Positions 28,639 through 62,385 of a stretch of DNA of 64,000 nt are shown here, one piece after another (the first letter of the stretch is position 1; each line of letters starts with the position of its first letter). The DNA lies in contig CALKXJ010000005.1 of NCBI GenBank assembly GCA_938003835.1, positions 124,001 to 188,000 on the forward strand, in the 5' to 3' direction. This DNA is from an uncultured Bryobacteraceae bacterium. GTDB lineage: Bacteria > Acidobacteriota > Terriglobia > Bryobacterales > Bryobacteraceae. The position numbers were made by a program, and so were the translations under genes. The notes below the pieces were generated by a model. The model had not been told where the DNA came from. It was given only the letters and a program-made list of their open reading frames with translations, and made no database searches.

Positions 28639-29217
28639 CTAGCTTTGGGAGCGGCGGCGACGGGCCCATAGCCCGAGAGCCACCAGCCCAAAACCGGCAA
28701 GAGCCATGCTAGCCGGTTCAGGTGTGTAAACGGTCAGCCTGGCACGGCCCTCGTCATCATCTGTGGACCAGACGTAGAAGCCAAACCGGTCGCCGGCGTT
28801 CAAGGTGATTCCGCCGACCCACCCGCTCTGTCCCAACGGCCCATTGTTGTTTGACAATTTAGTTAGCGTCCAGCTCCAGCCGCTGCCGCTCCAAACTCCG
28901 CGGAAATATCCGGCTTGGTCATAGTAGGGGGTACGGTTATCCCATGTCTGGTACGACCACAGGAACGAGAAAATGCCCGCGGTCGACACGTCCCAGCCCA
29001 CCGTCGTAAGAATTGTCCGGCCTGAACCGGTGTCACTGCCGTACAGCGTCACGCCCCACGGCGCTGCCGAAGCGTCAAACCACCCGTCCCCTCCACGCGG
29101 ACGAAATTCAGCCAGCAACGGATCAAACTGCCCGCTGAAAACTACCGGGCTCGCCGACAACACGGCGGGGATCAATGACAGAACTGCGATCGCAATCAAC
29201 CGGCTACGCACCCACAT
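28639..29217 (-). CDS. PEP-CTERM sorting-domain protein
   Basis: The 192-residue protein has a signal peptide (residues 1-22, ending LSASP) and ends with a PEP-CTERM tail: TPEPASMALAG, then a hydrophobic stretch and the basic WARRRRSQS. PEP-CTERM tails are recognised and cleaved by exosortase (EpsH) and go with exopolysaccharide production. The middle is rich in Gly, Ser, Trp and Tyr and has no known domain. The ATG at 29217 fits the signal peptide better than one at 29241. No exosortase is in the window, but glycan genes adjoin. Confidence 0.85.
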   Translation of the reverse strand: MWVRSRLIAIAVLSLIPAVLSASPVVFSGQFDPLLAEFRPRGGDGWFDASAAPWGVTLYGSDTGSGRTILTTVGWDVSTAGIFSFLWSYQTWDNRTPYYDQAGYFRGVWSGSGWSWTLTKLSNNNGPLGQSGWVGGITLNAGDRFGFYVWSTDDDEGRARLTVYTPEPASMALAGFGLVALGLWARRRRSQS

Positions 29218-29280
29218 TTTCACTCGTGTCCTCTCCAACATACGCGTCTGTGAGCGACGGCACCTTGCGCCATCAGGTTC

Positions 29281-29309
29281 AGTTTACACAGCTCCCCCGA
29301 ACTCGTCAA
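29281..29309 (-). promoter_or_regulatory. Sigma-70 type promoter of the PEP-CTERM gene
   Basis: On the minus strand TTGACG (29304-29309) and TAAACT (29281-29286) are separated by exactly 17 bases, and the -10 has a TG extension (TGTAAACT). It lies about 64 bases before the start codon. No sigma-54 -24/-12 pair was found, although that type is common for PEP-CTERM genes. Confidence 0.55.
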
Positions 29310-29323
29310 GCAAAAACTCCACC

Positions 29324-29356
29324 TAGTACTGAATTGGCAGGTACTAATCTGGTACT
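29324..29356. promoter_or_regulatory. Three GTACT boxes upstream of the PEP-CTERM promoter
   Basis: AGTACT, GGTACT and GGTACT occur at about 29325, 29340 and 29351; the last two are 11 bases apart, one helical turn. The cluster ends 15 bases upstream of the predicted -35, a normal place for activator binding. Confidence 0.35.
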
Positions 29357-29376
29357 GTTCAAAACCGCGGCCGGTC

Positions 29377-30342
29377 TCAGCCTCTTGCGCCCGCGCCGCT
29401 CGCGCGTAGCCAGCGAGCGAACCGTTGGAGACCTTCTACGAGCTCCGTCTTCGGTCCGTAGCCGAGTAGGACACGGGCTTTGTCGATATCGGCCCAGGTC
29501 CGGGGCACCTCACCGGGCTGCTCCCGGATTCGCTTTATATTCGCCTTGACACCGAGCACCTCTTCGAGGCACCGCACTAGCTCGGCCAGGCTTACCATAC
29601 GGTTGTTGCCCAGATTGATCACCTCGTAGGGCGATCCCTGGTAGTCGATCGCCGCCCGCACGCCGGCGATGATGTCATCGATATAGGTGTAGTCCCGGCT
29701 GGTCGTTCCGTCACCGAACATCGTTATCGGCTCACCCGCGAGCATCGCCCGCGCGAACTTGTGGATCGCCAGGTCCGGCCGCTGCCTGGGCCCGTAAACG
29801 GTAAAAAAGCGCAGCGCCAGGAACCGGGTCCCGTACAAATGGCTGTAGACGTGGCCCAGCAGCTCGCCGCTGACTTTCGTGGCCGCATACGGGCTGATGG
29901 GCCGCAGCACGGGAGTCGACTCCCGCCACGGAACATCCGGATTGACTCCGTAGACGCTGCTCGAAGAGGCAAACACGAACTGCCGGACTCCCCAACGCCG
30001 GGCCAGCTCGAGCAGATTCTGCGTACCCCGGACGTTGACCTCCTGGTAGGCGATCGGATCCTGAATCGATGGCCGCACGCCGGCCTTCGCGGCCAGGTGG
30101 ACGATGACGTCGTAGCCGCCCTCCAGGAGGCCGGCAAGCAGGCCGAGATCCCGGATGTCGCCCTCCACCAACCGGTAGTGGTCGTTGGTCAGATGGGGAG
30201 CGATGTTTCGCCGTTTGAACTCCGCCGGGTAGAAGGGATCGAAATTGTCCACCGCGGTCACCCGCCAGCCCTCGCCGAGCAGCCGGTCGGCGAGATGGCT
30301 CCCGATGAAGCCTGCGGCCCCGGTGATCAGAGCGTGCCGGAT
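29377..30342 (-). CDS. UDP-glucuronate-epimerase-type NAD-dependent epimerase, likely ATC start
   Basis: The extended SDR has FASSSSVYG, the YxxxK pair in YAATK, RFFTVYGPRQRPD and FGDGTTSRDYTYIDD, as in 4-epimerases of UDP-glucuronate/UDP-galactose. The first standard start (GTG at 30261) would delete the NAD motif TGAAGFIG, which is in frame just upstream. The frame is open to a TAA and contains no ATG, GTG or TTG before it. The first plausible codon is ATC at 30342, with AGGAGG 4 bases before, giving 321 residues and an N terminus RHALITGAAGFIGSHL. Product: nucleotide-sugar epimerase for surface glycan. Confidence 0.85.
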   Translation of the reverse strand: MRHALITGAAGFIGSHLADRLLGEGWRVTAVDNFDPFYPAEFKRRNIAPHLTNDHYRLVEGDIRDLGLLAGLLEGGYDVIVHLAAKAGVRPSIQDPIAYQEVNVRGTQNLLELARRWGVRQFVFASSSSVYGVNPDVPWRESTPVLRPISPYAATKVSGELLGHVYSHLYGTRFLALRFFTVYGPRQRPDLAIHKFARAMLAGEPITMFGDGTTSRDYTYIDDIIAGVRAAIDYQGSPYEVINLGNNRMVSLAELVRCLEEVLGVKANIKRIREQPGEVPRTWADIDKARVLLGYGPKTELVEGLQRFARWLRASGAGARG

Positions 30343-30383
30343 GACGCCTCCTGGTCGCCTCTCGACGGCTTATTGCCGCCCGA

Positions 30384-32543
30384 GTGTACTACTCTAACAC
30401 TGTAGTGCTGCGCATTTTGCTTGCTGCCGCGGGACTGGCGGTAGCCGCCTGGGGCCTCACCCATCCCGGATTCCGCGACGCCGAGGGCATCCCGACCGGA
30501 GCGCTCTGCCTGCCGGTCTCGGCGGGCGCGGCTCTTGCTGTGCTCGCCGCCGGATGGAGGAGGCCCTGGCGGCAGGCTGCGGCCTGGTTCGCGCTGGCCC
30601 TGGTGGGACAAGCTGCCTCGCTCCAGATGATCGACGCAGGCGTGCGCCTGCACTACCAGCATTATCGACCGCTCGGTTGGCTGCTGGAGCACAGGCCGTG
30701 GCTGACGGCCTTGGTCGCCCTGCAAGCCCTTGCCGTGTTGGCCGGCTGGCGCTCCCGGCTCCGGCCCTTCCTCAGTTGGCTGCGGCGCAATTTTCGCCTC
30801 TGGCAGGTGGCCGGCCTGGCGCTGGTGCTCTGGTTCCCCGCGGCTACGGTCTCCGAAGACGTCCGCTTCTATGTCGCCGAACTCGCTTTTGCCGCCCTGC
30901 TTCAGACCCTTGCGCTGCTGAACATCATCCTGGTGGCCTGGAGCCTGCCGGAAGGCCGCCTGGCCGCCGCATCGCGCTTTGCGCCGGAGTCGCCCGACAC
31001 GCGCCGCGGCGAGCGCGGGCCCGACCGGCTCGCCCTGGCGGCTGCCGTTTGGGTGAGTTGCCTGGCCGCCGCGCTGAGCTGGTTCTCTTACGAACGGCAC
31101 CCGCATATCCCCGACGAAGTGGTCTATCTGATCCACGCCCGCTACTTCGCCGAAGGAAAGCTGTGGTTGTCGCCTCCGCCCGTTCCAGCGGCCTTCGACA
31201 TCGATTTGATGAACCTGGAGCCGGACCGGTGGTTTTCGCCGGTGCCTCCGGGCTGGCCTGCCGTGCTCGCCCTCGGCGTGCTCGCCGGTGCACCCTGGTT
31301 GGTCAACCCGCTGCTGGCCGGCCTCAACGTCCTGCTCGCCTTCGCCCTCCTCCGCCGGCTCTACGATCGCTCCTTGGCGCGCCTCTCGCTCCTGCTGCTC
31401 GCCTGCTCGCCCTGGCATGTGTTCATGGCGATGAACTTCATGACGCACACCCTCACGCTCACGCTGGCTCTGGCCGCCGGCCTGGGCCTGATGCGCGCTA
31501 TGCGCCAGGGCAAGCCAGGGTGGGCCGCCGTGGCCGGGCTGGGCGCTGCGGGCGCCGGGCTGGTGCGCCCCCTGGAAGGGTTCACCCTCGGCTGCCTGCT
31601 GGCGCTCTGGCTTCTCGCCGCCCGGCAGAATCTCCGGCAAAAGTTCACCGCTCTGGCCGCGTTTGCCGCCGGCGGAATCCTCCTCGGGGCGCCCGCGCTT
31701 GTTTATAACCGCCTGCTTACGGGCGATGCGCTCAAGTTCCCGATCATGGCCTACACCGACAAGTATTACGGGCCGAATTCGAACGCACTCGGATTCGGAC
31801 CCGATCGAGGCCTGGGCTGGGCCATCGACCCCAATCCCGGCCACAGCCCCTTCGACGCGCTGGTGAACGCCAACCTGAACACCTTCTCGATCAACATCGA
31901 ACTATTCGGCTGGAGCACGGGCTCGCTGTGGTTAGCCGCCCTCTACCTGTTCTCCGGGCGGCTGCGCAGGCCGGACTGGCTTATGCTGGCGCTGTGCGCG
32001 GCCATCTTCGCCGTCCACTTTTTCTACTACTTCAGCGGGGGACCGGACTTCGGGGCCCGCTATTGGTATCTGATGCTGATCCCGCTCATCGCCTTCACCG
32101 CCGGCGGGCTGGCGCGCCTCGAAGAACTACTGCCGGCAGCCGAAAAACGCATCCGCGCCGGCCTGGCGGCACTGTGCCTGATGGCGCTCGTCAACTATTT
32201 CCCCTGGCGCGCCATCGACAAGTACCACCACTACGAGCACATGCGCCCCGACGTGCGGGAGCTGGCCCGCAAGCTCGATTTCGGAGCTTCGCTCGTGCTG
32301 GTCCGCGGCGACCGCCACCCGGACTACGCCTCCGCCGCGGTCTACAATCCGCTGGAGTTGCGCGCGCCGGTGCCGGTGTATGCCTGGGACCGCAACCCGC
32401 AAGTGCGCCGCCAAGTGATCGAGGCCTACCGGGATCGTCGCATCTGGATTCTCGAGGGACCCACGCGCACCGGCGCGGGCTACCGCGTCGCAGCCGGCCC
32501 GCTCAGCCCCGAGGCCGCCCTGGCGCTGTCGGAAACCCCATGA
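30384..32543 (+). CDS. GT-C fold membrane glycosyltransferase (ArnT/PMT-like)
   Basis: The 719-residue protein has about 12-13 hydrophobic segments. The acidic loop motif after the segment near residue 235 reads HPHIPDEVVYLIHARYFAEGKL; its P-D-E corresponds to the catalytic acidic site of GT-C enzymes. A periplasmic C-terminal part follows residue 610. Such proteins move a sugar from a polyprenyl-phosphate donor to protein, lipid A or glycan. Start is GTG at 30384 or 30405. The stop overlaps the next gene (ATGA), opening a coupled glycan operon. Confidence 0.8.
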   Translation: MYYSNTVVLRILLAAAGLAVAAWGLTHPGFRDAEGIPTGALCLPVSAGAALAVLAAGWRRPWRQAAAWFALALVGQAASLQMIDAGVRLHYQHYRPLGWLLEHRPWLTALVALQALAVLAGWRSRLRPFLSWLRRNFRLWQVAGLALVLWFPAATVSEDVRFYVAELAFAALLQTLALLNIILVAWSLPEGRLAAASRFAPESPDTRRGERGPDRLALAAAVWVSCLAAALSWFSYERHPHIPDEVVYLIHARYFAEGKLWLSPPPVPAAFDIDLMNLEPDRWFSPVPPGWPAVLALGVLAGAPWLVNPLLAGLNVLLAFALLRRLYDRSLARLSLLLLACSPWHVFMAMNFMTHTLTLTLALAAGLGLMRAMRQGKPGWAAVAGLGAAGAGLVRPLEGFTLGCLLALWLLAARQNLRQKFTALAAFAAGGILLGAPALVYNRLLTGDALKFPIMAYTDKYYGPNSNALGFGPDRGLGWAIDPNPGHSPFDALVNANLNTFSINIELFGWSTGSLWLAALYLFSGRLRRPDWLMLALCAAIFAVHFFYYFSGGPDFGARYWYLMLIPLIAFTAGGLARLEELLPAAEKRIRAGLAALCLMALVNYFPWRAIDKYHHYEHMRPDVRELARKLDFGASLVLVRGDRHPDYASAAVYNPLELRAPVPVYAWDRNPQVRRQVIEAYRDRRIWILEGPTRTGAGYRVAAGPLSPEAALALSETP

Positions 32544-62367: not shown

Positions 62368-62385
62368 GCCTCCTGTCGCCGTCCC

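Follow-up and report, generated by a model that had tools for sequence, protein, structure and literature searches.

Few genes with an AUC or AUU start have been documented. One of them, pcnB of E. coli, is said to have its expression limited by its AUU start. The infC gene, which encodes IF3, is described as starting at ATT in E. coli and at ATC in Streptomyces, while Streptomyces sigR is reported to start at GTC with AGGAGGTG and to be repressed by IF3 through this GTC (PMC5472188). In S. aureus, conserved AUU and AUA starts with an extended Shine-Dalgarno sequence (SD) are described, with an activity in poor medium of about 10% of that of AUG (PMC13009471). The pncA gene of Borrelia burgdorferi (BBE22) is reported to start at AUU, and an N-terminus that it needs was missing from its truncated annotation (PMC13398362). 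A literature search of partial coverage, on ATC starts in Acidobacteria and on AUC/AUU or non-canonical starts, returned nothing on the gene described below.

The window, that is the whole stretch of 64,000 nucleotides analysed here, originates from an uncultured Bryobacteraceae bacterium and harbors on its minus strand an NDP-sugar epimerase gene (SDR family, PF01370; 29377..30342, 321 codons plus the stop when read from ATC). Judged from its sequence, translation of this gene very probably begins at AUC with the ordinary initiator tRNA, recruited by a strong SD. The frame is bounded upstream by an in-frame TAA (30370..30372, minus), and from this stop to the first canonical codon, a GTG (30259..30261, minus), it holds not a single ATG, GTG or TTG. 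This GTG is located 27 codons into the frame, downstream of the motif TGAAGFIG, so that its use as a start would drop 27 residues and with them the whole NAD-binding motif. The proposed start, ATC (30340..30342, minus), occupies the position of the Met in homologues and is preceded by the SD AGGAGG (30347..30352, minus) with a 4-nt spacer, CGTC. These features had been claimed in the sequence-only reading of the DNA: TGAAGFIG in frame upstream of GTG 30261, no canonical codon between the TAA and this motif, and AGGAGG followed by four bases and ATC at 30342-30340. All of them are confirmed on the minus strand.

Anti-SD matching over the candidate starts of the frame yields 6 nt at a spacing of 4 for ATC, 4 nt at a spacing of 12 for the GTC codon immediately preceding it, 4 nt at a spacing of 8 for GTG 30261, and no match for CTG 30330. 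In 1.26 Mb of the source genome, a match of at least 6 nt is found for 111 of 822 predicted genes, a generous measure as it was taken at the best canonical codon among the first 30, and for 266 (2.0%) of the 13,306 ATC codons located in frame inside genes, which represent the chance background. The 4-nt spacing is on the short side of the genome's distribution and common to 16 of the 111 strong-SD genes. In the predicted fold, part of the SD lies inside a small hairpin of unremarkable energy (z -0.83, 39 of 200 shuffles folding as well). An Rfam search of 29000-30700 returned no match that would point to a riboswitch or another known RNA in the leader, and a consensus scan of 29100-30700 turned up nothing promoter-like ahead of the gene. 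Independently of the SD, coding signal extends upstream of the first canonical start.

The translation from ATC matches PF01370 with 209.1 bits (cut-off 20.9) over the complete profile (1-240 of 240), from residue 4 onwards. SDR-type NDP-sugar epimerases/dehydratases are characterized by the motifs TGxxGxxG and YxxxK, and both TGAAGFIG and YAATK are intact in this translation. The best-scoring solved structures are 5u4q, named dTDP-glucose 4,6-dehydratase, and 6zl6, named epimerase domain-containing protein; among the NCBIfam equivalog models, none of the 25 listed (of 32 matched) reaches its curated cut-off. The predicted product is an intact SDR-type nucleotide-sugar epimerase, and the identity first proposed for it is borne out as epimerase/dehydratase.

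The sole syntenic orthologue found belongs to another genus of Bryobacteraceae (genome G033) and is 70% identical. At the exact codon of the ATC it exhibits ATT, preceded at a distance of seven bases by AGGAG, and the frame from the ATT back to the in-frame stop is free of canonical codons. In both genomes the epimerase is adjacent to a divergent gene of 719 aa in the same arrangement (30384..32543, plus strand; 62% identical over 651 residues), beyond which the same two genes are found, coding for another epimerase (59%) and for a glycosyltransferase of GT2 type (80%). The divergent neighbour was found in 12 of 237 family genomes, and only in the source genome and G033 does the epimerase stand divergently beside it: the other ten loci show nothing closer than distant relatives (25-29% identity) in compared stretches that extend no more than about 1.5 kb beyond the match, one of them ending with its contig. 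Ungapped comparison of the two orthologues gives 1 identical residue of 14 upstream of the ATC/ATT as against 21 of 27 between ATC and GTG. In the latter stretch, the identities at the three codon positions are 0.89, 0.89 and 0.52, which is the signature expected of a translated protein. Taken together, these values indicate that selection acts at the protein level on the codons ahead of GTG 30261, and that the AUH codon is the edge of this stretch.

The start position was further compared among 107 relatives, own locus included, that score at least 300 bits, three duplicates having been dropped and two contig ends skipped. In 102 of the 107, a canonical codon is present at -16 to -5 from the GxAGFIG anchor, and in 36 relatives the nearest one falls exactly at the codon of the ATC (-7), as ATG (27), GTG (6) or TTG (3). 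Five loci are devoid of a canonical codon in this interval: the source gene (L001), the G033 orthologue with its ATT at -7 (L006), a Puniceicoccaceae relative of 58% identity with only ATT/ATA at the start position (L069), and L047 and L095, with a canonical codon farther upstream (-36/-47 and -42, respectively). Other relatives at about 70% identity in Bryobacteraceae have canonical starts, ATG in L043 and GTG in L038 (Bryobacteraceae bacterium RSWS6). A class-level search for close relatives (399 genomes, E 1e-118) revealed none that was new, and a phylum-level search (396 genomes, E 1e-125) four more, three with ATG in this very position and the fourth (L389) with TTG three codons before it. 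Alignment with orthologues, which had been proposed as a check of the start position, favours ATC, as nearly all relatives have a canonical codon at or near this place, and it adds the ATT of the syntenic orthologue. ATC is the only candidate in which SD, position and conservation come together; with AUU at the same codon in an orthologue from another genus, this argues for an AUC start, and ATC, as proposed earlier, ranks as the best start of the frame.

The ATT of G033, together with the conservation that begins there, makes both a dead gene and a base-call error unlikely. The former would mean that the start codon has decayed in an epimerase gene being lost or silenced, initiation being too weak to matter. 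Such decay would be in line with the mostly canonical starts elsewhere and with the patchy occurrence of the gene in Bryobacteraceae (a match at E 1e-85 or better in 52 of 237 family genomes), but the frame is open with TGAAGFIG and YAATK intact, dN/dS is well below 1 (dN 0.25 and dS 0.91 over the gene, compared to G033), no more than 111 of the 822 genes have so strong an SD match, and the codon is non-AUG at the same place in two genomes. Decay is therefore considered very improbable.

The epimerase is not the only such case, as a second gene of the window, overlooked in the sequence-only reading, shares this organization. The GT9 (heptosyltransferase-type) glycosyltransferase gene (PF01075; 61465..62364, minus) has no canonical start; its proposed start, ATC at 62364-62362, follows the SD AGGAGG (62369..62374, minus) after 4 nt, as AGGAGG-CATC-ATC. 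An SD-independent scan of 464 kb of the source genome for coding signal extending at least 15 codons upstream of the first canonical start returned four ORFs, two of which, both with AGGAGG-N4-ATC, are the epimerase and GT9 genes of the window. GT9 matches at E 1e-20 or better are present in 223 of the 237 family genomes, and the start regions were read in 70 of these, nearly all best-scoring, with 69 being usable. A canonical codon is located at -30 to -11 of the RLRSLGDC anchor in 67 of the 69 loci, mostly at -17, and the only loci without a canonical start are those of the source genome and G033. The source genome has ACA at -17 and ATC at -13 after AGGAGG, while G033 has ATC at -20, nine bases after GAGGAG. 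A third genome (G162) exhibits ATC at -17, yet GTG at -14 and -25. That the same two genera are without a canonical start in both the epimerase and the GT9 gene is suggestive, in a test that was prompted by the scan of the source genome itself. The GT9 gene probably starts at ATC, the case being weaker than that of the epimerase because the proposed codon is four codons downstream of the usual start. This second AUC gene suggests that the lineage tolerates AUC/AUU starts in a few genes.

The other explanation touched on above, a consensus or base-call error concealing a true ATG, would take only one substitution in a draft of 38 contigs that shows a single-base oddity elsewhere (an in-frame TGA versus Trp, C2 near 177090), but an independent genome has ATT at the same codon, and the GT9 gene is a second one with AGGAGG-N4-ATC; such an error is rated slightly less probable even than decay. 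Least probable of all is translation from another codon of the frame, for example CTG 30330 or GTG 30261: G033 has TTG in place of this CTG, from which a start would retain TGxxGFIG, but there is no SD match at the CTG and a weak one at the GTG, the TTG of G033 is 19 nt from its AGGAG, conservation begins at the ATC/ATT, and a GTG start would delete the NAD-binding motif.

A single AUH start inherited from the common ancestor of the source genome and G033 finds no support in the gene trees: the epimerase tree (59 rows) and the GT9 tree (30 rows), both weakly resolved, do not group the two genomes. In the former, G033 groups weakly with L038 and L009, both of canonical start. Two independent start-codon changes in the source genome and G033 are possible on the basis of these trees.

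The frequency of such starts was surveyed in 1,263,633 bases of the source genome (5.0 Mb, 38 contigs), comprising 1014 predicted genes, of which 822 have a score above 40. This survey yielded three candidates for an ATC or ATT start: the epimerase, the GT9 gene and a NUDIX hydrolase-like gene with ATT (L235 19209-19661, source genome C4, plus strand). This ATT shares bases with the stop codon of the upstream gene (ATTAG) and is preceded at 8 nt by AAGGAG, and the NUDIX gene has matches in 18 of 19 other family genomes searched, which begin at NUDIX residues 1 to 6. With three candidates in the entire survey, a genome-wide shift to AUC/AUU starts is not supported. The SD scan returned 15 distinct ORFs with positively scored entries, 3 with ATC/ATT and 12 without, so that the scan alone is weak and homology carries the argument. 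In 660 kb of G033, one further SD-preceded ATT was found, with a negative coding score; the G033 epimerase itself falls outside the survey filter due to a TTG four codons after its ATT. Control stretches of 200 kb each from genomes G182 and G231 contain no ATC/ATT case and one CTG case each, that of G182 being positively scored.

Coding signal upstream of the first canonical start was observed for seven ORFs of the source survey, including both ATC genes and one gene with an in-frame TGA in a signal peptide; C2:102747 and C2:193152 were rejected as non-canonical starts since by eye both begin at a canonical ATG, and C7:154664 and C8:152371 are the remaining two. G033 contributes five ORFs of the same type, and G182 and G231 a single one apiece; two of the five were inspected more closely. 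Three further observations were made in the course of these surveys. In the source genome, the TGA of C2 near 177090 (minus strand) is in frame within an apparent signal peptide and corresponds to Trp in a G033 homologue, representing either a nonsense change or a consensus error. In G033, a long ORF of C5 near 119906 (L333) is split by an in-frame TAG and otherwise reads on. Also in G033, a gene of C3 near 27700 (L176) has no canonical start near its apparent N-terminus, with a candidate CTG behind GGAG just past the preceding stop.

Concerning the mechanism of initiation of the epimerase at AUC, the simplest account would be that the usual initiator tRNA pairs with this codon as a near-cognate, aided by the SD and at reduced output: the strong SD 4 nt upstream would recruit the ribosome, and the ordinary initiator tRNA would start the protein. 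A dedicated initiator tRNA with a GAU anticodon reading AUC is improbable on the 30 of the 43 tRNA loci covered: three tRNAs carry CAT there, and the GAT tRNA resembles an ordinary Ile tRNA beside Ala(TGC). Alignment of 16 IF3 sequences of the family displays nothing distinctive by eye in the source genome or in G033 that would point to an altered IF3. Going by the literature, AUC would initiate less efficiently than AUG, with IF3 selecting against it, so that the codon probably holds the epimerase at a low level. Regulation controlled by IF3 is plausible by analogy, and the AUC codon may either serve regulation or be simply tolerated. In Bryobacteraceae, infC itself shows an ATG start located 15 to 19 codons ahead of the conserved N-terminal motif, with no recognisable SD, in 15 of 16 readable loci (19 fetched: L142, L368-L385), which leaves the infC analogy without a local anchor. 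It is conceivable, if doubtful, that AUC/AUU codons are true starts in a small set of genes of this Bryobacteraceae-type Acidobacteriota lineage, including envelope-sugar genes such as the epimerase and GT9 genes, without canonical start in the same two genera, and that this set would form a shared translational class of low output or tuned by IF3, infC itself being AUG.

Gene callers that take only ATG, GTG and TTG would shorten genes of this kind or make them look dead. The presence of two of them in one window, with counterparts in another genus likewise devoid of a canonical start, suggests that such genes may be found by comparing relatives, and yields a few candidates for ribosome profiling in the Acidobacteriota, a phylum that has been little studied.

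Compared with the described systems, the epimerase shares with infC an AUU/AUC start of a conserved gene. The infC start is part of a feedback loop on IF3 itself, whereas the epimerase gene encodes a metabolic enzyme, and infC starts at ATG in 15 of the 16 Bryobacteraceae loci. The gene also resembles pcnB of E. coli in its AUU/AUC-type start. As described, Streptomyces sigR likewise uses a very rare start codon that follows a strong SD of AGGAGG type, and was misannotated by start prediction, and S. aureus cvfC1 (AUU), ccpN and citZ (AUA) likewise combine non-canonical starts with a strong SD. Borrelia pncA is the counterpart among metabolic enzymes, its shorter annotation lacking a needed N-terminal part. 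The evidence differs in kind: the repression of sigR by IF3 was shown by experiment, the S. aureus starts were mapped by ribosome profiling and reporters, and that of pncA was confirmed by biochemistry and a crystal structure, whereas the start of the epimerase is deduced from sequence. Start codons of this sort, as described for infC, pcnB, sigR and cvfC1, are rare but established, and the epimerase adds to this known kind.
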